The notes beneath the pieces are model-generated. The model worked only from the letters and a program-made list of their open reading frames with translations, had not been told where the DNA came from and ran no database searches. A DNA stretch of 46,057 nucleotides from Devosia equisanguinis. Its GTDB lineage: Bacteria > Pseudomonadota > Alphaproteobacteria > Rhizobiales > Hyphomicrobiaceae. Shown piece after piece: positions 9,862-18,096 of the stretch. The position numbers and the translations under genes were made by a program. Positions within the stretch are counted from its first letter, which is position 1. Each line of letters opens with the position of its first letter. The stretch lies in NCBI GenBank assembly GCA_945889015.1, contig CAMDBL010000008.1:1-46057 (forward strand). The letters are read 5' to 3'.

Positions 9862-10635
9862 TCATCCCGTCCAGTTGCCGCCGTTGACGTCGAGCACCGC
9901 GCCGATGGTGAAGCCGGCGCCGGGGGTGCAGAGGTACCAGATGGCATGCGCCAGTTCGTCCTCGGTGCCGAGCCGGCCGACGGGGATCGTGCGGGCGGTC
10001 GCGGCGAGTCGCTCGTCGCTGTGGCGGCGGGCGCGCGGCGTCAGGGTGGTGCCGGGCGCGATGCAGTTGACGGCGATGCCGTAGGGCGCGAGCTCCACCG
10101 CGAGGCGCCGCGTCAGGCCGATGGTGCCGGCCTGCATGGTCGAATACTGGAGTGCTGCTCCCATGCGGCCACGCCGGCCGGTGGTCGACGACATCATCAC
10201 GATGCGGCCGTAGCCGTTGGCCTTCATGGCCGGCACGAAGCGCTGCGTGATCAGCACCTTGGAGACGATGTTCCACTCGAAGCTGTGATGCAGGGCCGCG
10301 TTGGTCACCTCCTCGATCGGCGGGTGCTCGATCCAGCCGCCGGCGATGTTGCAGAGGATGTCGACACGGCCCCAGCGGTCGAGGATGGCCTTGCTGGTGG
10401 CATCGACCTCGGCCTCGTCGGCGCAGTCGCAGGCGAGGAAGTGCGCGTCATGGCCCTCGGCCCTGAGCTCGGCCACCATCGCCTCGCCCTTCGCCGCGTC
10501 GCGGCCGAGCGCGATCGCGGTCGCACCCTCACGCGCGAACCGCCGTGTGCAGCCGGCTCCGATGCCGGCCGTGCCGCCGGTGACCACCGCGACCTGTCCG
10601 CGGATCGACGTGAGATGGGTGAACGATGTCGTCAT
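9862..10635 (-). CDS. SDR-family oxidoreductase lacking the catalytic Lys (YxxxQ)
   Basis: A 257-residue Rossmann-fold short-chain dehydrogenase relative. The cofactor motif VVTGGTAGIG is at residues 17-26, N122 (FEWN) and S149/S150 (MMSSTTG) of the SDR tetrad are retained, and Y164 is in ALQYSTMQAG. The residue four after Tyr is Q168 where SDRs have Lys, and no Lys lies at +7 either, as an FabI-like enzyme would have. The C-terminus is GAVLDVNGGNWTG. Its ATG overlaps the stop of the upstream 2OG-Fe(II) oxygenase (ATGA), so the two are translationally coupled. It is clearly paralogous to the SDR at 11790. A reductase/dehydrogenase role is uncertain without Lys; substrate unknown. Confidence 0.92.
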   Translation of the reverse strand: MTTSFTHLTSIRGQVAVVTGGTAGIGAGCTRRFAREGATAIALGRDAAKGEAMVAELRAEGHDAHFLACDCADEAEVDATSKAILDRWGRVDILCNIAGGWIEHPPIEEVTNAALHHSFEWNIVSKVLITQRFVPAMKANGYGRIVMMSSTTGRRGRMGAALQYSTMQAGTIGLTRRLAVELAPYGIAVNCIAPGTTLTPRARRHSDERLAATARTIPVGRLGTEDELAHAIWYLCTPGAGFTIGAVLDVNGGNWTG

Positions 10636-11645
10636 ACGGGCACTCCCGCCTTCCTCTCCGCATACGCGAAGTTCGCCGTGGCGTACTGCGCGTGGTGCTG
10701 GCTGAACGTGATCGGGGCGTGTTTCGGCGCGGTCTCCGGCGCCGCGATCGGTGTCATCACGGCGTCGACGGAGGGGTAGAAGAAGAAGATGTTGGAGAAG
10801 CGGTCGCCGGTCTTGGAGGCGAGCACGCGATGCGGCGTCGCGATCAGGCGGTCGTTGGCCCACCGGCGCAGCGCCATGCCGGTGTTGACGACGATGCCGC
10901 CGGGCACGTGCGGCTGGTCGATCCAGGTGCCGTCCCGCAGCAGGATCTGCAGGCCGGGCGCGGTCGCCGGCGGGATCATGGTCAGGAACGACATGTCGGT
11001 ATGCGGCCGGCTGCCGAACTGGTCCTCGTCGACCGGCAGCACCGGATACCACGCGAGACGGACGACCGAACTCGTCTCGGCGAACGCCGCATCGAAATGA
11101 TCGGGCGTCACACCGAGCGCAACGGCGACCATGGGCAGCAGCCGCCGGCCGAGCGCGTCGAAGGTTTCGAGATAGTCCTGCAGCACGGCGTGCGAGGCTT
11201 CGGACAGCCCCTCCGGCCATCGGTTGTGCCCGATGAAGCGTTTCGTTCCGCGATGATCGGGATGGCCGGGCGGCAGGTCGTGCGCGTACTTGAACGCCTC
11301 GTTGGCGTTGGCCTTGACCGCCGATCCGTCGCCGAGACCTGTGGTCTGCATCGCCACCTTGGACGGCTGGAAGCCGCACTGGTGCTCGTTCATCCGCACC
11401 GCGAGCTTGGCGTCGGCCGGTAGCGCGAACAGCTCGCGCGAGGCCGCGAACGAGCGCTCGACGAGGGCCGGATCGAGCCCGTGGTTGACGATGAAGAAGA
11501 AGCCGATCTCGGTGCAGGCGCGCTTAAACGCGCGCGCGGCCTGCTCCAGCGCGCCGGGTGCGTCTGCCAGAAGCGGCCCGACATCGATGATCGGCACGTC
11601 GCGGGCGGTGGCTTCGGACGTGTTCGTCTCGGTGGAAGCTTTCAC
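10632..11645 (-). CDS. 2-oxoglutarate/Fe(II)-dependent oxygenase, isopenicillin-N-synthase-like
   Basis: A 337-residue non-heme iron oxygenase. The N-terminal DIOX_N-like part has DVPIIDVGPLL and EIGFFFIVNHGLD. The double-stranded beta-helix domain carries the iron facial triad H215, D217 (SRPHTDMSF) and H272 (ATPHRVL), with the 2-oxoglutarate-binding R282-x-S284 (DRFSN). All key residues are intact, so catalysis is expected, probably hydroxylation or oxidative desaturation of a small molecule. The substrate cannot be read from the sequence. It sits between two SDR paralogues on the same strand and shares a 4-base overlap with the downstream one, which argues for a shared pathway. Confidence 0.93.
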   Translation of the reverse strand: MKASTETNTSEATARDVPIIDVGPLLADAPGALEQAARAFKRACTEIGFFFIVNHGLDPALVERSFAASRELFALPADAKLAVRMNEHQCGFQPSKVAMQTTGLGDGSAVKANANEAFKYAHDLPPGHPDHRGTKRFIGHNRWPEGLSEASHAVLQDYLETFDALGRRLLPMVAVALGVTPDHFDAAFAETSSVVRLAWYPVLPVDEDQFGSRPHTDMSFLTMIPPATAPGLQILLRDGTWIDQPHVPGGIVVNTGMALRRWANDRLIATPHRVLASKTGDRFSNIFFFYPSVDAVMTPIAAPETAPKHAPITFSQHHAQYATANFAYAERKAGVPV

Positions 11646-11789
11646 GACATTTTCCCACTTGCGTTTTCCCGGCCGGAGTGGCGCGGAGCGCGACGCGGAG
11701 CCGGGACCCTTACCGCAATCTGGCGGGTGAAGATCCCGGATCTCCGCGCTACGCGCTGCGTCCGGGACACCGGCCTTCTGGATTTGATC

Positions 11790-12551
11790 TCACCCCATCC
11801 AATTTCCGCCGTTCACGTCGAGCACCGCGCCCGTCGTGAAGCCGGCACCTGGCGTGCAGAAATACCAGATCGCGTGCGCCAGCTCCTCGGGTCTCCCGAG
11901 CCGGCCGACGGCGATCGACTGCGCGCGCTTGGCCAACTCGTCCTCGGAATGACGGCGCACGCGCGGCGTGTTGACGAGGCCGGGCGCGATCGCGTTGACA
12001 GTGATCCCGAACGGCGCCAGCTCGACGGCGAGGCGCCGCGTGAACCCGAGGATCGCCGCCTCGTTGAGGGAGTATTCGATCGACGAGCCGGAGCGCGCGG
12101 TACGTCCCGCGACCGAGGAGATGTTGACGATCCGGCCGTAGCTGTTGGCCTTCATCGCCGGCACCAGTTCCTTGGTGATCAGGAACTTGGCGGTCACGTT
12201 CCAGTCGAAGCTGTGGTGCAGGCCCGCATGCGTCACCTGCTCCAGCGGCGGCGCATCGATGAAGCCGCCGGCGGTATTGACCAGGATGTCGGCGCGCCCC
12301 CAGGTGTCCAGCACCTTCTTGGCGGCGGTTTTCACCTCGCCCTCGTCGGCGCATTCGGCCTGGACGAACATCGCGGTGCCGCCCGCGTCCGTGATCTCCT
12401 TGACGACGGCGTGGCCCTTCTCCGGCGTGCGGCCGATCACGGCGACCTTGGCCCCCTCGGCGCCGAACCGCAGGCAGGCCGCGTGGCCCATACCGGCCGT
12501 GCCGCCGGTGACGACGGCGACCTGCCCCGCAATCGAGGTGATCTGGTCCAA
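11790..12551 (-). CDS. SDR-family oxidoreductase lacking the catalytic Lys (YxxxE)
   Basis: A 253-residue SDR relative, collinear with the protein encoded at 9862-10635 and sharing long identical stretches (GQVAVVTGGTAG, TRRLAVELAP, DVNGGNW). Cofactor motif VVTGGTAGMG is at residues 13-22, with N118 (FDWN), S145/S146 (NISSVAG) and Y160 (SIEYSLNEAA). The expected Lys at Y+4 is E164, and Y+7 is Ile. The start ATG at 12551 gives MDQITSIAGQVAVV. It lies 144 bp upstream of the oxygenase gene on the same strand. It may be a partner subunit of the other SDR, a non-redox SDR fold, or an enzyme with altered chemistry. Confidence 0.92.
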   Translation of the reverse strand: MDQITSIAGQVAVVTGGTAGMGHAACLRFGAEGAKVAVIGRTPEKGHAVVKEITDAGGTAMFVQAECADEGEVKTAAKKVLDTWGRADILVNTAGGFIDAPPLEQVTHAGLHHSFDWNVTAKFLITKELVPAMKANSYGRIVNISSVAGRTARSGSSIEYSLNEAAILGFTRRLAVELAPFGITVNAIAPGLVNTPRVRRHSEDELAKRAQSIAVGRLGRPEELAHAIWYFCTPGAGFTTGAVLDVNGGNWMG

Positions 12552-12657: not shown

Positions 12658-13380
12658 TCAGGCCCGCCGCATGAGCTTCGTCTGGCCGCGCCGCGCGTAG
12701 AACATGCGGCCGTAGACGTCGCCGATCAGTTCGCGCTTGTAGTCCATGTAGTCGAGGATCGGGTCCCAGGGGCATTCCTCGTCGAGGATCGCCTCGAAAT
12801 CCTTAGCCAGAACCTGCTGCATCACCTTCCGGTTGGCGCGGTTCTGGAACTCGCCGAGCACCAGTGACGTGCGCGACAGATCGAGCGCCGCCAGCACCTC
12901 GCCCTCGCCACCCTCGATGTCGATCTTGACGATGTCGGCCGATGTCAGCGTCGCGGGATCGATCACGTCGACCTCGACCATGCGGCCCAATGCGTGCTTT
13001 TCGAAGGTGTCGCCGGCATAACGCGCGAGCCCGCCCTCGCCGTCGCCGTCGAAGCGCGCGAAATAGGGCTCCTTGGCACGCGCGCCGGGGAACAGCGCGG
13101 CGTTGACGGCGGTCACGTTCGGCAGGTGCCCGGTGTTACGTTTCAGGAGTGCGAACGTGCCGGGGTTGGGCTCGTAGCTGGCGATGCGGCTCGCCGGCCA
13201 GCGCAGGTTGGCCCACACCGCGAACGAGCCGACGTTGGCACCGATGTCGAGGATATCGAGGCCCGCCCCGTCGAAGCCGCTCTCGTACTCGCCCGCCAGC
13301 ACATACTCCACCGCCGAGCGCATCGGCTCGGGGCATTCCAGGTGCACGGGGATGGTGGCCTTGAAAACGGTCGGCGTCAT
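12658..13380 (-). CDS. FkbM-family methyltransferase
   Basis: A 240-residue S-adenosylmethionine-dependent methyltransferase of the FkbM type, which usually O-methylates sugars or other secondary products. The SAM-binding motif is LDILDIGANVGSFAVWANL, followed by ASYEPNPGTFALLKRN and the family KIDIEGGEGEVLAAL. The reading frame is open upstream to 13518, but the 46 extra residues are low-quality and ATG 13380 has GAGG at a good distance, so this start was chosen. It is first in the minus-strand group FkbM-SDR-oxygenase-SDR and divergent from the acyl-CoA synthetase, leaving a 166-bp shared promoter region. Confidence 0.9.
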   Translation of the reverse strand: MTPTVFKATIPVHLECPEPMRSAVEYVLAGEYESGFDGAGLDILDIGANVGSFAVWANLRWPASRIASYEPNPGTFALLKRNTGHLPNVTAVNAALFPGARAKEPYFARFDGDGEGGLARYAGDTFEKHALGRMVEVDVIDPATLTSADIVKIDIEGGEGEVLAALDLSRTSLVLGEFQNRANRKVMQQVLAKDFEAILDEECPWDPILDYMDYKRELIGDVYGRMFYARRGQTKLMRRA

Positions 13381-13546
13381 GAACCCTCGTTTCGTCGGTG
13401 GCGTCGATGCGTCTGCGCTGCACCTTACACGGCAGCGGCATAGGTGTCGCCCGACGGCGAGCGTTGAACCGGACGGCGGAATTTGGTTAGCCTGCGCCGT
13501 CGTTCCGTCCGTGCGCACTCAGCGCCCCATCCCGAGGCCGCCAGAC

Positions 13547-15751
13547 ATGACCTTAGCCAGGGCCTTCGATCCCCGTGGCATCGCCATCATCGGCGCCTCG
13601 GCGGACCCGACGCGGATCGGCGGGCATCCGCTGCGGGCGCTACGCAACGCCGGCTACAAGGGCGGCGTCTATCCGGTGAACCCGAAGTATCCGGAGATCG
13701 CGGGCTGGACATGCTACCCTACGGCCAAGGCGATCGACGGGCCGTGCGACCTCGCCATTATCGCCGTGCCGGCCGCTGCCGCGCCCGCCGCCGTGCGCGA
13801 CGCGGGTGAGGCCGGCATCTCCGTGGCGATCATCCTGACGGCAGGATTCCGCGAGGCGGGCGCGCCGGGCCGCAAGCTCGAGGCCGAGCTGCTGGCGGCG
13901 GCGCGCGAGACCGGCATCCGCCTGATCGGGCCGAACTGCCAGGGCATGCTCGTCATGCAGTCGCGGGTGTGGGCGGTGTTCGGAAGTCTCGCCGAGGAGA
14001 CCGAGTTGCGTCCGGGCACGGTCAGCGGCGCGTTCCAGTCCGGCGGCTTCGGCTTCGGCATCGTCAATCTGTCGGAGCAGCAGGGCGCCGGTTTCCGAAT
14101 CTGCGTCTCGACCGGCAACGAGACCGACGTGACCATGCCCGAGCTGATCGGCGCCATGCTCGACGATCCCGGCACCGACATGGCGTTCGGCTTGCTCGAA
14201 GGTACGCCAGATGCGCGACGGTTCCTCGAGGTCGGCCGCCGCTCACTGGAGACGGGCAAGCCGGTACTGATCTGGAAGAGCGCCGTCACCGAGCAGGGAG
14301 CGAAGGCCGCAGCCTCGCACACCGCCAACATGACCGGCTCGACGGACCTGTGGCGCGCGGCGCTGAAGCAGGCGGGTCTGATCGAGGTCGACGACGTCGA
14401 ACCGATCACCGACATCGCCAAGCTGGTCGCGCAGGGTCGGCTGCCGAAGGGGCCGCGCGTCGGCGTGCTGTCGATTTCCGGCGGCTCCAGCATCGTATTC
14501 GCCGACCGCGCGACACAGGGCGGGCTGGTGTTCCCCGGCTTCGCCAAATCCACGCACGACGCGTTGTCCAGGATCATCCCGTCGTTCGGCTCGGTCGAGA
14601 ACCCGGCCGACGTCACCGCGGGCGTGTTCAACAACATGGACATTCTGACGCAAGCGATCTCGATCGTGCTCGATGATCCGGGCATCGACCAGGTGGTGCT
14701 GATGCTGGCCTCGATCCCCGGCGCGGGCGCGCTGCTGGCGGCCAAGGCGATCGCGGCGGCGGCGGCGCGCACCGACAAGCCGGTGACGCTGGTGTGGTCG
14801 GGGCGGCGCTCGAAGTCGGAGCCGGCCTATGCCGTGCTGGAGGAAGCCCGCGTTCCGATCGTGCCGACCCCGCCGCGCATGGCCGCCGCGATGGCCAAGC
14901 TGACGCGGTTCAGCCTCGACCGGGAACGGTTGCTGCCTCGGTTGCGGGCGGATGCTGACGCATCACTCCCCTCCCCGCTGGGGGGAGGGGGCGGGGGGAA
15001 TCCCCACGCCAGCGGCCGTTCTGCCATCCCCCCCACCCCTAACCCCTCCCCACAAGGGGGAGGGGAATTCAGAGGCACCCTAACCGAGCTCGAGAGCAAG
15101 CAGCTGCTCGCCCACTACGGCATTCCCGTCACGCGCGAGGTGCTGGTGCCGCCGGGCGGCGATCCGCTCGATCTCGCTGGACACCTGAAGCCGCCGTTCG
15201 CGGTCAAGATCGTCTCGGCCGACATCGCCCACAAGTCCGACATAGGCGGCGTCAGGCTCGGCATCGCCACCCATGCGGAGCTGGCCGCCGCCATCCTCGA
15301 CGTCACCGGGCGCTCACGCAAGGCGATGCCGTCCGCCCGGATCGAAGGCGTCGTCGTCGCCGAGATGGCGCGGGGCATCGAAACGCTGATCGGCGTCGTC
15401 AACGATGCGAGCTTTGGACCCGCGATTGCGCTGGGCATGGGGGGCGTGACGGCCGAGGTGATGAAGGACGTCACCTACCGCATCGCGCCGTTCGGCATCG
15501 AGACGGCGCGCGAGATGATCGCCGAGTTGAAGTCCGCGCCCTTGTTCCACGGCTATCGCGGCAGCCCGCCAGCCGATGTCGAGGCGCTGGCCGGCTGTCT
15601 CGTCAAGGTGGCTCGCCTCGCCTGGGATCTGCGCGACAGTCTCGCCGAGCTGGACGTCAATCCGCTGTTTGTCGGCGCGACGGGCCATGGAGTCGTCGCC
15701 GCCGATGCGCTCGCCATCCTGAAGCCCGTCGGACCGGAGCCCACCGCGTGA
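13547..15751 (+). CDS. NDP-forming acyl-CoA synthetase (acetate-CoA ligase family), with in-frame repeat insertion
   Basis: Fused alpha-beta acyl-CoA synthetase of 734 residues from ATG 13547. Domains in order: CoA-binding Rossmann fold (about 1-130, FDPRGIAIIGASADPTRIGG), succinyl-CoA-ligase-like domains (about 150-460) with the phospho-histidine H258 in AAASHTANMTGS, and an ATP-grasp domain (about 515-730) with VKIVSADIAHKSDIGGVRLG and LAELDVNPLFVG. It converts a carboxylic acid to its CoA ester with NTP; the acid is unknown. Residues about 474-507 are a low-complexity Gly/Pro linker ([21 protein letters not shown]) encoded by a palindromic repeat inserted in frame at the domain junction. 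The frame extends upstream to 13184, but that part is antisense to the FkbM gene. Its stop overlaps the next gene. Confidence 0.93.
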   Translation: MTLARAFDPRGIAIIGASADPTRIGGHPLRALRNAGYKGGVYPVNPKYPEIAGWTCYPTAKAIDGPCDLAIIAVPAAAAPAAVRDAGEAGISVAIILTAGFREAGAPGRKLEAELLAAARETGIRLIGPNCQGMLVMQSRVWAVFGSLAEETELRPGTVSGAFQSGGFGFGIVNLSEQQGAGFRICVSTGNETDVTMPELIGAMLDDPGTDMAFGLLEGTPDARRFLEVGRRSLETGKPVLIWKSAVTEQGAKAAASHTANMTGSTDLWRAALKQAGLIEVDDVEPITDIAKLVAQGRLPKGPRVGVLSISGGSSIVFADRATQGGLVFPGFAKSTHDALSRIIPSFGSVENPADVTAGVFNNMDILTQAISIVLDDPGIDQVVLMLASIPGAGALLAAKAIAAAAARTDKPVTLVWSGRRSKSEPAYAVLEEARVPIVPTPPRMAAAMAKLTRFSLDRERLLPRLRADADASLPSPLGGGGGGNPHASGRSAIPPTPNPSPQGGGEFRGTLTELESKQLLAHYGIPVTREVLVPPGGDPLDLAGHLKPPFAVKIVSADIAHKSDIGGVRLGIATHAELAAAILDVTGRSRKAMPSARIEGVVVAEMARGIETLIGVVNDASFGPAIALGMGGVTAEVMKDVTYRIAPFGIETAREMIAELKSAPLFHGYRGSPPADVEALAGCLVKVARLAWDLRDSLAELDVNPLFVGATGHGVVAADALAILKPVGPEPTA
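14966..15065. repeat. 100-bp palindromic repeat element inside the acyl-CoA synthetase gene
   Basis: Two hairpins point at each other. The first is CCCCTCCCC (14968-14976) with GGGGAGGGG (14982-14990); the second is CCCCTCCCC (15043-15051) with GGGGAGGGG (15057-15065). The ends form a larger inverted repeat. The reverse complement of the right half matches 27909-27944 nearly base for base, including the TTGGGGGTGGGGGG-type tail, and the left half resembles 9836-9858. It is translated in frame as a Gly/Pro-rich linker. Confidence 0.8.
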
Positions 15752-16892: not shown

Positions 16893-17019
16893 GGCGGGGA
16901 AGATGGTTTACGGCATCTTGCAATCACCAACCGGGACGAGCCCGACGGGCCGGACGGTGGAAGCAAACGAGACAAGACAGTCCATCCCCCCATCCACTTC
17001 ACCCCAACAGGAGACGACC

Positions 17020-18096
17020 ATGGCTATCGAGACCACTCTGAACAACGGCAACAACGTTTTCGCCGGCTCCAACATCGAGGACGACATCATCTTCGCCGAG
17101 GGCGGCAACGACGAGGTGTTCGGCCGCGGTGGCGACGACACGATCTTCGGCGGTGAAGGCGCCGACACGCTGCGCGGCGGCGAGGGCAAGGACGTGCTCG
17201 TCGGCGACGCTGGCAACGACCAGCTCGATGGCGGCAACGGCGAAGACAGCCTGATCGGCGGCGCCGGCAACGACACGCTGCTCGGCGGCAACGGAGCCGA
17301 CACGCTCGAGGGTGGCGAGGGCGCCGACCGTCTCGAGGGTGGAGCGGGCAACGACCAGCTCAACGGCGAGGCCGGCAACGACACGCTGCTCGGCGGCGAC
17401 GGCAACGACGTGGCCCGCGGCGGCGACGGCAACGACTCGATCGAGGGCGGGGCCGGCAACGACACGCTGCTCGGAGAGAAGGGTGCCGATGTCATTCGCG
17501 GCGGTGACGGGACCGACCGCATCGACGGCGGCGAGGGCAACGACCAGCTGTTCGGCGATGCCGGCAACGACCAGATGCTCGGTGGCGACGGCCGCGACTC
17601 GATGGACGGCGGCAAGGGCGCCGACCTGATGGCCGGCGGACAGGGCAACGACCTGATGACCGGTGGTGAAGGCAACGACACCATGCGTGGCCAGCAGGGC
17701 GACGACAAGCTCGACGGCGGCAAGGGCAACGACTTCGTGGCCGGCGGACAGGGCAACGACACGGTCGCTGGCGGCGAGGGCAACGACATCCTTCGCGGCG
17801 GGCAGGGCGAGGACGTGCTGAAGGGCGGGGTCGGCAACGACATCCTGACCGGCGGGACCGAGGCCGACAAGTTCGTGTTCGAGCAGGGCGGCGGCGTCGA
17901 CCACGTCACCGACTTCAGCCAGGCCGACCAGGATGTCATCGACCTCTCGCAGTTCGCGGATGTCGACAGCATCGACGACCTGCAGATCACCCAGGACGGC
18001 GCCAACACCGTCATCACCGTCGGCGACAGCGAGATCGTGCTCGACAACTTCGACGCCGGCAACCTGACCGCCTTCGACTTCGAGTTCCACGCCTGA
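17020..18096 (+). CDS. RTX calcium-binding protein built of tandem nonapeptides
   Basis: A 358-residue, strongly acidic secreted protein from ATG 17020, which has AGGAG at the right distance. The frame extends upstream to 16903, but those residues look non-coding. Residues 1-25 are a short lead-in; 26-286 are 29 consecutive nine-residue units of GGxGxDxLx type (the last degenerate), which bind Ca2+ in a parallel beta-roll. Residues 287-358 form the RTX C-terminal region (VDHVTDFSQADQDVIDLSQF, SEIVLDNFDAGNL) that type I secretion systems recognise. No lipase, protease or toxin domain is present, so a structural, adhesive or surface-layer role is more likely than an enzymatic one. No type I secretion genes are in the window. 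Confidence 0.93.
   Translation: MAIETTLNNGNNVFAGSNIEDDIIFAEGGNDEVFGRGGDDTIFGGEGADTLRGGEGKDVLVGDAGNDQLDGGNGEDSLIGGAGNDTLLGGNGADTLEGGEGADRLEGGAGNDQLNGEAGNDTLLGGDGNDVARGGDGNDSIEGGAGNDTLLGEKGADVIRGGDGTDRIDGGEGNDQLFGDAGNDQMLGGDGRDSMDGGKGADLMAGGQGNDLMTGGEGNDTMRGQQGDDKLDGGKGNDFVAGGQGNDTVAGGEGNDILRGGQGEDVLKGGVGNDILTGGTEADKFVFEQGGGVDHVTDFSQADQDVIDLSQFADVDSIDDLQITQDGANTVITVGDSEIVLDNFDAGNLTAFDFEFHA
17095..17877 (+). repeat. 27-bp tandem repeat array coding RTX nonapeptides
   Basis: Twenty-nine in-frame 27-bp units with consensus GGN GGN/GAN GGC AAC GAC in their first codons. The bases diverge between units while the protein motif stays, so this is an old, selected array. Confidence 0.9.

Follow-up and report, generated by a model that had tools for sequence, protein, structure and literature searches.

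Two neighboring SDRs without the YxxxK lysine belong to a conserved glutamate-bearing clade with a candidate substitute lysine on helix alpha-E

Few enzyme families are as large as the SDRs, whose annotation makes use of the YxxxK motif. How should two closely linked SDR genes be read that retain the tyrosine of this motif and have both lost its lysine? The genes lie on either side of a 2OG-Fe(II) oxygenase gene in the window, the 46,057-nucleotide stretch of Devosia equisanguinis DNA that was analyzed (contig CAMDBL010000008.1) (Table 1). A sequence-only reading had reported Gln (CAG) and Glu (GAG) at the lysine position of SDR-A and SDR-B, respectively, and the coordinates, reading frames, and residues were all confirmed. 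Neither protein therefore carries the lysine that defines YxxxK in classical SDRs.

Table 1. Features of the SDR-oxygenase-SDR cluster, in positions of the window
Feature	Position	Strand	Description
SDR-B	11790..12551	(-)	253 aa classical-type SDR; YSLNE, Y160, E164, N118-x3-K122
SDR-B codon 164	12060..12062	(-)	GAG = Glu at the YxxxK Lys position
SDR-B codon 122	12186..12188	(-)	AAG = Lys, helix alpha-E, tetrad Asn118 +4
2OG-Fe(II) oxygenase	10632..11645	(-)	337 aa; HxD...H...RxS intact
SDR-A	9862..10635	(-)	257 aa; YSTMQ, Y164, Q168, N122-x3-K126
SDR-A codon 168	10132..10134	(-)	CAG = Gln; 3 orthologues have Glu
SDR-A codon 126	10258..10260	(-)	AAG = Lys, counterpart of SDR-B K122

The remaining catalytic features are in place, as that reading had also described. 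The TGGTAGxG cofactor motif (TGxxxGxG type) is retained in both proteins, the catalytic Asn, Ser, and Tyr of SDR-B (N118, S146, and Y160) have their equivalents in SDR-A (Asn being N122), and the Y-x6-K arrangement of FabI-type enzymes is absent, the residue at Y+7 being Ile in SDR-B and Thr in SDR-A. The two paralogues are collinear, with 60% identity and a common DVNGGNW sequence. Likewise, the oxygenase that they flank was found to have an intact iron site (H215xD217 and H272) and 2OG site (R282xS284), it matches DIOX_N and 2OG-FeII_Oxy above the Pfam cutoffs (IPNS-like), and its final four bases are overlapped by the start of SDR-A. The start codon of SDR-B is TTG, preceded by GGAGG, and a scan for promoters and terminators gave signals at chance level. 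The next gene upstream of SDR-B, read in the same direction, encodes an FkbM-family methyltransferase (12658-13518, -). An ADP-forming acyl-CoA synthetase-like gene (13184-15751, +) is divergent from the cluster; its product could activate an oxo acid that the cluster supplies, and an RTX-type calcium-binding repeat protein is encoded at 16903-18096 (+).

Profile searches gave strong matches to adh_short_C2 and adh_short for both SDRs. The nearest broad family by profile includes FabG (PF13561, PF00106), and among the best 25 models no curated NCBIfam equivalog or subfamily cutoff was reached by either protein. The AlphaFold model of SDR-B has the classical SDR fold (pLDDT 86, pTM 0.88) and was aligned by Foldseek to many PDB entries with TM values of 0.86-0.92 at 30-38% identity. 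In this model, N118 and K122 share a helix (residues 108-135), as do Y160 and E164 (156-181). Arg41 and Lys45 hint at a preference for NADP(H).

Loss of the lysine is not a general trait of the SDRs in this genome: 49 other SDR-like proteins were retrieved from it, and the lysine is kept in all 44 that have the tyrosine. It is, instead, a property of the clade to which SDR-A and SDR-B belong. After identical and near-identical sequences of the same genomes in two collections had been merged, Glu was found at the lysine position in 17/17 distinct sequences of the SDR-B clade and in three of the four SDR-A sequences (20/21 in total). A genome-collection scan, which used two peptide patterns and may miss members, returned six SDR-B orthologues with about 77-79% identity, all with Y-x3-E. 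The SDR-A orthologues of three genomes (68-73% identity) read YSTME, and Gln occurs in the SDR-A of the window only. The conservation of Q/E that had been proposed as a check thus holds for Glu and fails for Gln. A limited literature search yielded no "YxxxE" SDR.

A class-wide search led to a single family (f128), with members in 20 of its 24 genomes. The cluster was probably acquired by the window's genome, because 397 genomes from the window's order yielded no member at the cutoffs applied; nor did 398 genomes sampled across the phylum. No plasmid copies were found at E 1e-40. Two side observations concern other SDRs. At locus L089 (8587-10254, -), two family copies lie in tandem, the first split over two frames by decay or assembly error. 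A separate, divergent group (L148, which comes from the window's genome, L037, and L039) has SN-x-x-R at the YxxxK stretch, with Tyr and Lys both replaced.

In the phylogenetic tree, A and B form well-supported sister clades with lysine-bearing members outside. More distant members, at about 45-60% identity, have Lys, apart from one with Thr (L044). The two different residues in the window had been taken as separate replacements; however, the SDR-A orthologues have Glu, and on the best tree the history reads as a single replacement of Lys by Glu that predates the divergence of A and B, with the Gln of the window's SDR-A arising from Glu later. The codons suggest a path of single-base steps, from AAG to GAG to CAG. 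Values of dN/dS range from 0.014 to 0.121 for the computable close pairs inside each of the two clades, more distant pairs being saturated, and strong purifying selection acts on the A/B clade. The proposed subfamily is thus real.

If the lysine was lost from enzymes that are still under selection, does another residue accompany its loss? Across 137 aligned SDRs, the lysine on helix alpha-E (K122 in SDR-B) is present in all 22 tyrosine-keeping members without the YxxxK lysine and in two of the 111 SDRs with it. It is the sole lysine found in all 22 yet rare among the lysine-bearing members. The two exceptions, L066 and L067, are close outgroup relatives of the A/B clade in which both lysines are present. 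The association is strong by Fisher's test (p 4e-23, uncorrected for kinship). In a tree built without the two lysine columns, K122 undergoes two changes, most plausibly a gain and a loss, and there are two losses of the YxxxK lysine, to Glu and, in L044, to Thr, with K122 present both times. The covariation comprises few independent events, because K122 arose once and the lysine was lost twice, once on a weakly placed row (L044) whose fork is open in this tree; an independent-pairs test cannot reach significance on such numbers. The L044 protein itself (1501-2259, +) combines Y-x3-T and K122 with Ser for the tetrad Asn, apparently a separate loss of the YxxxK lysine. Judged by covariation and position, K122 (K126 in SDR-A) may take the place of the lost lysine, the very circumstance that the sequence-only reading had named as counting against its proposal.

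The catalytic lysine, then, may have moved rather than vanished. As a whole, the best explanation is that SDR-A and SDR-B are classical redox SDRs in which the role of the lysine moved from alpha-F to alpha-E, a view to which we give a little under an even chance. The full form of this idea, an evolutionary relocation of the catalytic lysine in which the N-x3-K lysine of alpha-E functionally replaced that of YxxxK, with a Glu salt bridge at the old site and living relatives that have both lysines, is put forward somewhat more tentatively. In this small group of classical, presumably NAD(P)(H)-dependent SDRs, the alpha-E lysine would have arisen first, and the alpha-F lysine would then have been replaced by Glu (by Gln in the window's SDR-A). 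Tyr160 would stay the proton donor/acceptor and Ser146 would still hold the substrate, while K122, at i+4 of Asn118, is predicted to bring its ammonium close to the position that the lysine left. In other SDRs, the main-chain carbonyl of the tetrad Asn carries the relay water, according to passages of PMC3922912. Glu164 would bridge K122 and the nicotinamide ribose, and the pKa of the tyrosine would thus still be lowered. The A/B enzymes would accordingly remain alcohol/ketone dehydrogenases. Glu itself is not indispensable, because SDR-A has Gln. K122 could also be needed for another reason, such as a salt bridge or a dimer interface.

Redox chemistry need not be abolished by loss of the lysine, since the K155E, K155R, K155I, and K155A variants of Escherichia coli FabG are active in vivo, as stated in passages of PMC7973133. 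This leaves two main readings, the favored relocation to alpha-E and simple tolerance, in which ordinary redox SDRs put up with the loss, K122 is incidental or only structural, and replacing Lys by Glu matters little for catalysis. We consider simple tolerance unlikely, though deserving of attention. The same passages report that the FabG K155 mutants lost acetoacetyl-CoA activity and that K155A had no measurable NADPH binding (PMC7973133), and an excerpt of PMC3922912 states that a Lys-to-Ala substitution abolished the activity of RrQR. Moreover, Glu persists throughout the clade, which is under strong purifying selection, and the lysine was lost solely where K122 is present.

Gene neighborhoods bear on which reaction is catalyzed. 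In two genera (g323 and g278), all contigs of sufficient length show SDR-B preceded by an SCP2-type thiolase, a ChsH2-type OB/Zn protein, and 3-oxoacid CoA-transferase subunits A and B. The transferase scores above the cutoffs of 3-oxoacid CoA-transferase models and is of the standard type, with the SENG glutamate present. In genus g323, a second copy of the A subunit and a YHYH-domain protein (L080, 8143-8835 and 8880-9740, +) lie between CoA-transferase B and the SDR. Because a thiolase and a CoA-transferase lie beside it, SDR-B of these genera is suggested to make a 3-oxo acid (or acyl-CoA) from an alcohol. In this sister lineage, SDR-B would probably convert a 3-hydroxy acid to the 3-oxo acid consumed by the adjacent CoA-transferase and thiolase. 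In a search of the window's genome for this CoA locus, just thiolases at 34% or less were found.

In genus g154, SDR-B adjoins SDR-A without oxygenase or CoA genes, and the SDR-B/SDR-A tandem is known from four genomes, that of the window and three others. The SDR-oxygenase-SDR order, whose conservation had been proposed as a check, occurs in the window's genome only, as no oxygenase lies beside the SDRs at any other member examined. The nearest sampled oxygenase homologues (49% and 46%) are also from f128 and are unlinked to SDRs. An oxygenase followed by dehydrogenases conforms to the ordinary hydroxylate-then-oxidize pattern, and in the window's genome SDR-B and SDR-A would probably oxidize the alcohol that the intervening oxygenase forms.

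The sequence-only reading had favored altered, possibly non-redox chemistry. Of this proposal, the lysine-less subfamily under purifying selection stands, whereas the non-redox part fits poorly with thiolase and 3-oxoacid CoA-transferase neighbors, which suggest hydroxyacid dehydrogenation instead. A dehydratase, epimerase, or retro-aldolase-like SDR with Glu as general base would explain a carboxylate conserved at a catalytic position in nearly every A/B sequence, and CoA and thiolase enzymes nearby make isomerase or lyase steps possible. However, Tyr, Ser, Asn, and the cofactor motifs are all kept, a standard 3-oxoacid CoA-transferase with its SENG glutamate calls for an upstream oxidation, and the Gln at the same position of SDR-A cannot act as a base. 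We regard non-redox chemistry as improbable.

We judge it equally improbable that these proteins are pseudoenzyme partners in a hetero-oligomeric SDR, in the manner of BbsC in BbsCD, with A and B pairing mutually or with a lysine-bearing SDR. The A/B tandem of four genomes is compatible with such an assembly, and a structure exists for a relative, BbsCD (7pcs), in which inactive subunits form part of a heterotetramer, going by a title cited in PMC10818641. Nevertheless, a BbsCD-like pair is made less likely by the 13 genomes of g323 and g278 in which SDR-B stands without SDR-A, one member per genome, and the earlier suggestion of a hetero-oligomer, as an obligate A/B complex, finds no support in the same genomes. 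In addition, pairing A with B would give no canonical subunit, as both are without the lysine, and, the lysine apart, nothing is missing from their cofactor and catalytic motifs. Finally, local mutation, sequencing error, or gene decay is scarcely credible, for although the Gln of SDR-A is known from a single genome, an error or pseudogene as the source of Glu is refuted by 20 further distinct sequences from many assemblies, together with low dN/dS and intact frames.

The A/B clade is a new variant of the classical SDRs. With its tyrosine, a fixed Glu in place of the lysine, the alpha-E lysine, and relatives that have both lysines, it constitutes a natural experiment on the role of the lysine, and it is relevant to the contested report that E. 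coli FabG can function without that residue (PMC7973133). Relocation, if true, would be a rare move of a catalytic residue for which both-lysine forms are still living. The clade also warns against labeling lysine-less SDRs as inactive.

Compared with FabG (3-oxoacyl-ACP reductase) and other classical SDRs, the A/B proteins have the same fold, TGxxxGxG motif, N-S-Y residues, length, and C-terminal xNGG, but differ in the Glu or Gln at the YxxxK lysine and in the additional lysine at N-x3-K. BbsCD, the (alpha-hydroxybenzyl)succinyl-CoA dehydrogenase of anaerobic toluene degradation, is likewise encoded by tandem SDR genes, next to a thiolase and its Zn/OB partner protein, and BbsD has 36% identity to SDR-B in the fold alignment. 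However, one subunit type of BbsCD is active and the other inactive, whereas the commonest arrangement in the A/B clade is a single SDR, and the CoA-transferase of the A/B-clade locus is of the PcaIJ/ScoAB type. Bacterial use of ketone bodies and 3-hydroxybutyrate proceeds through an SDR dehydrogenase, a 3-oxoacid CoA-transferase (ScoAB), and a thiolase. The SDR-B locus has the same order of functions, but its thiolase is of the SCP2/lipid-transfer type, it includes a ChsH2-type OB protein, and its SDR has Glu for Lys. Precedent for displaced or replaced catalytic residues within the SDR fold is provided by the Y-x6-K of FabI and the LxxxK of BcSDR (PMC11614110). In those enzymes the spacing on alpha-F is changed or the tyrosine is lost, whereas in the A/B clade the tyrosine is kept and the candidate lysine lies on alpha-E.
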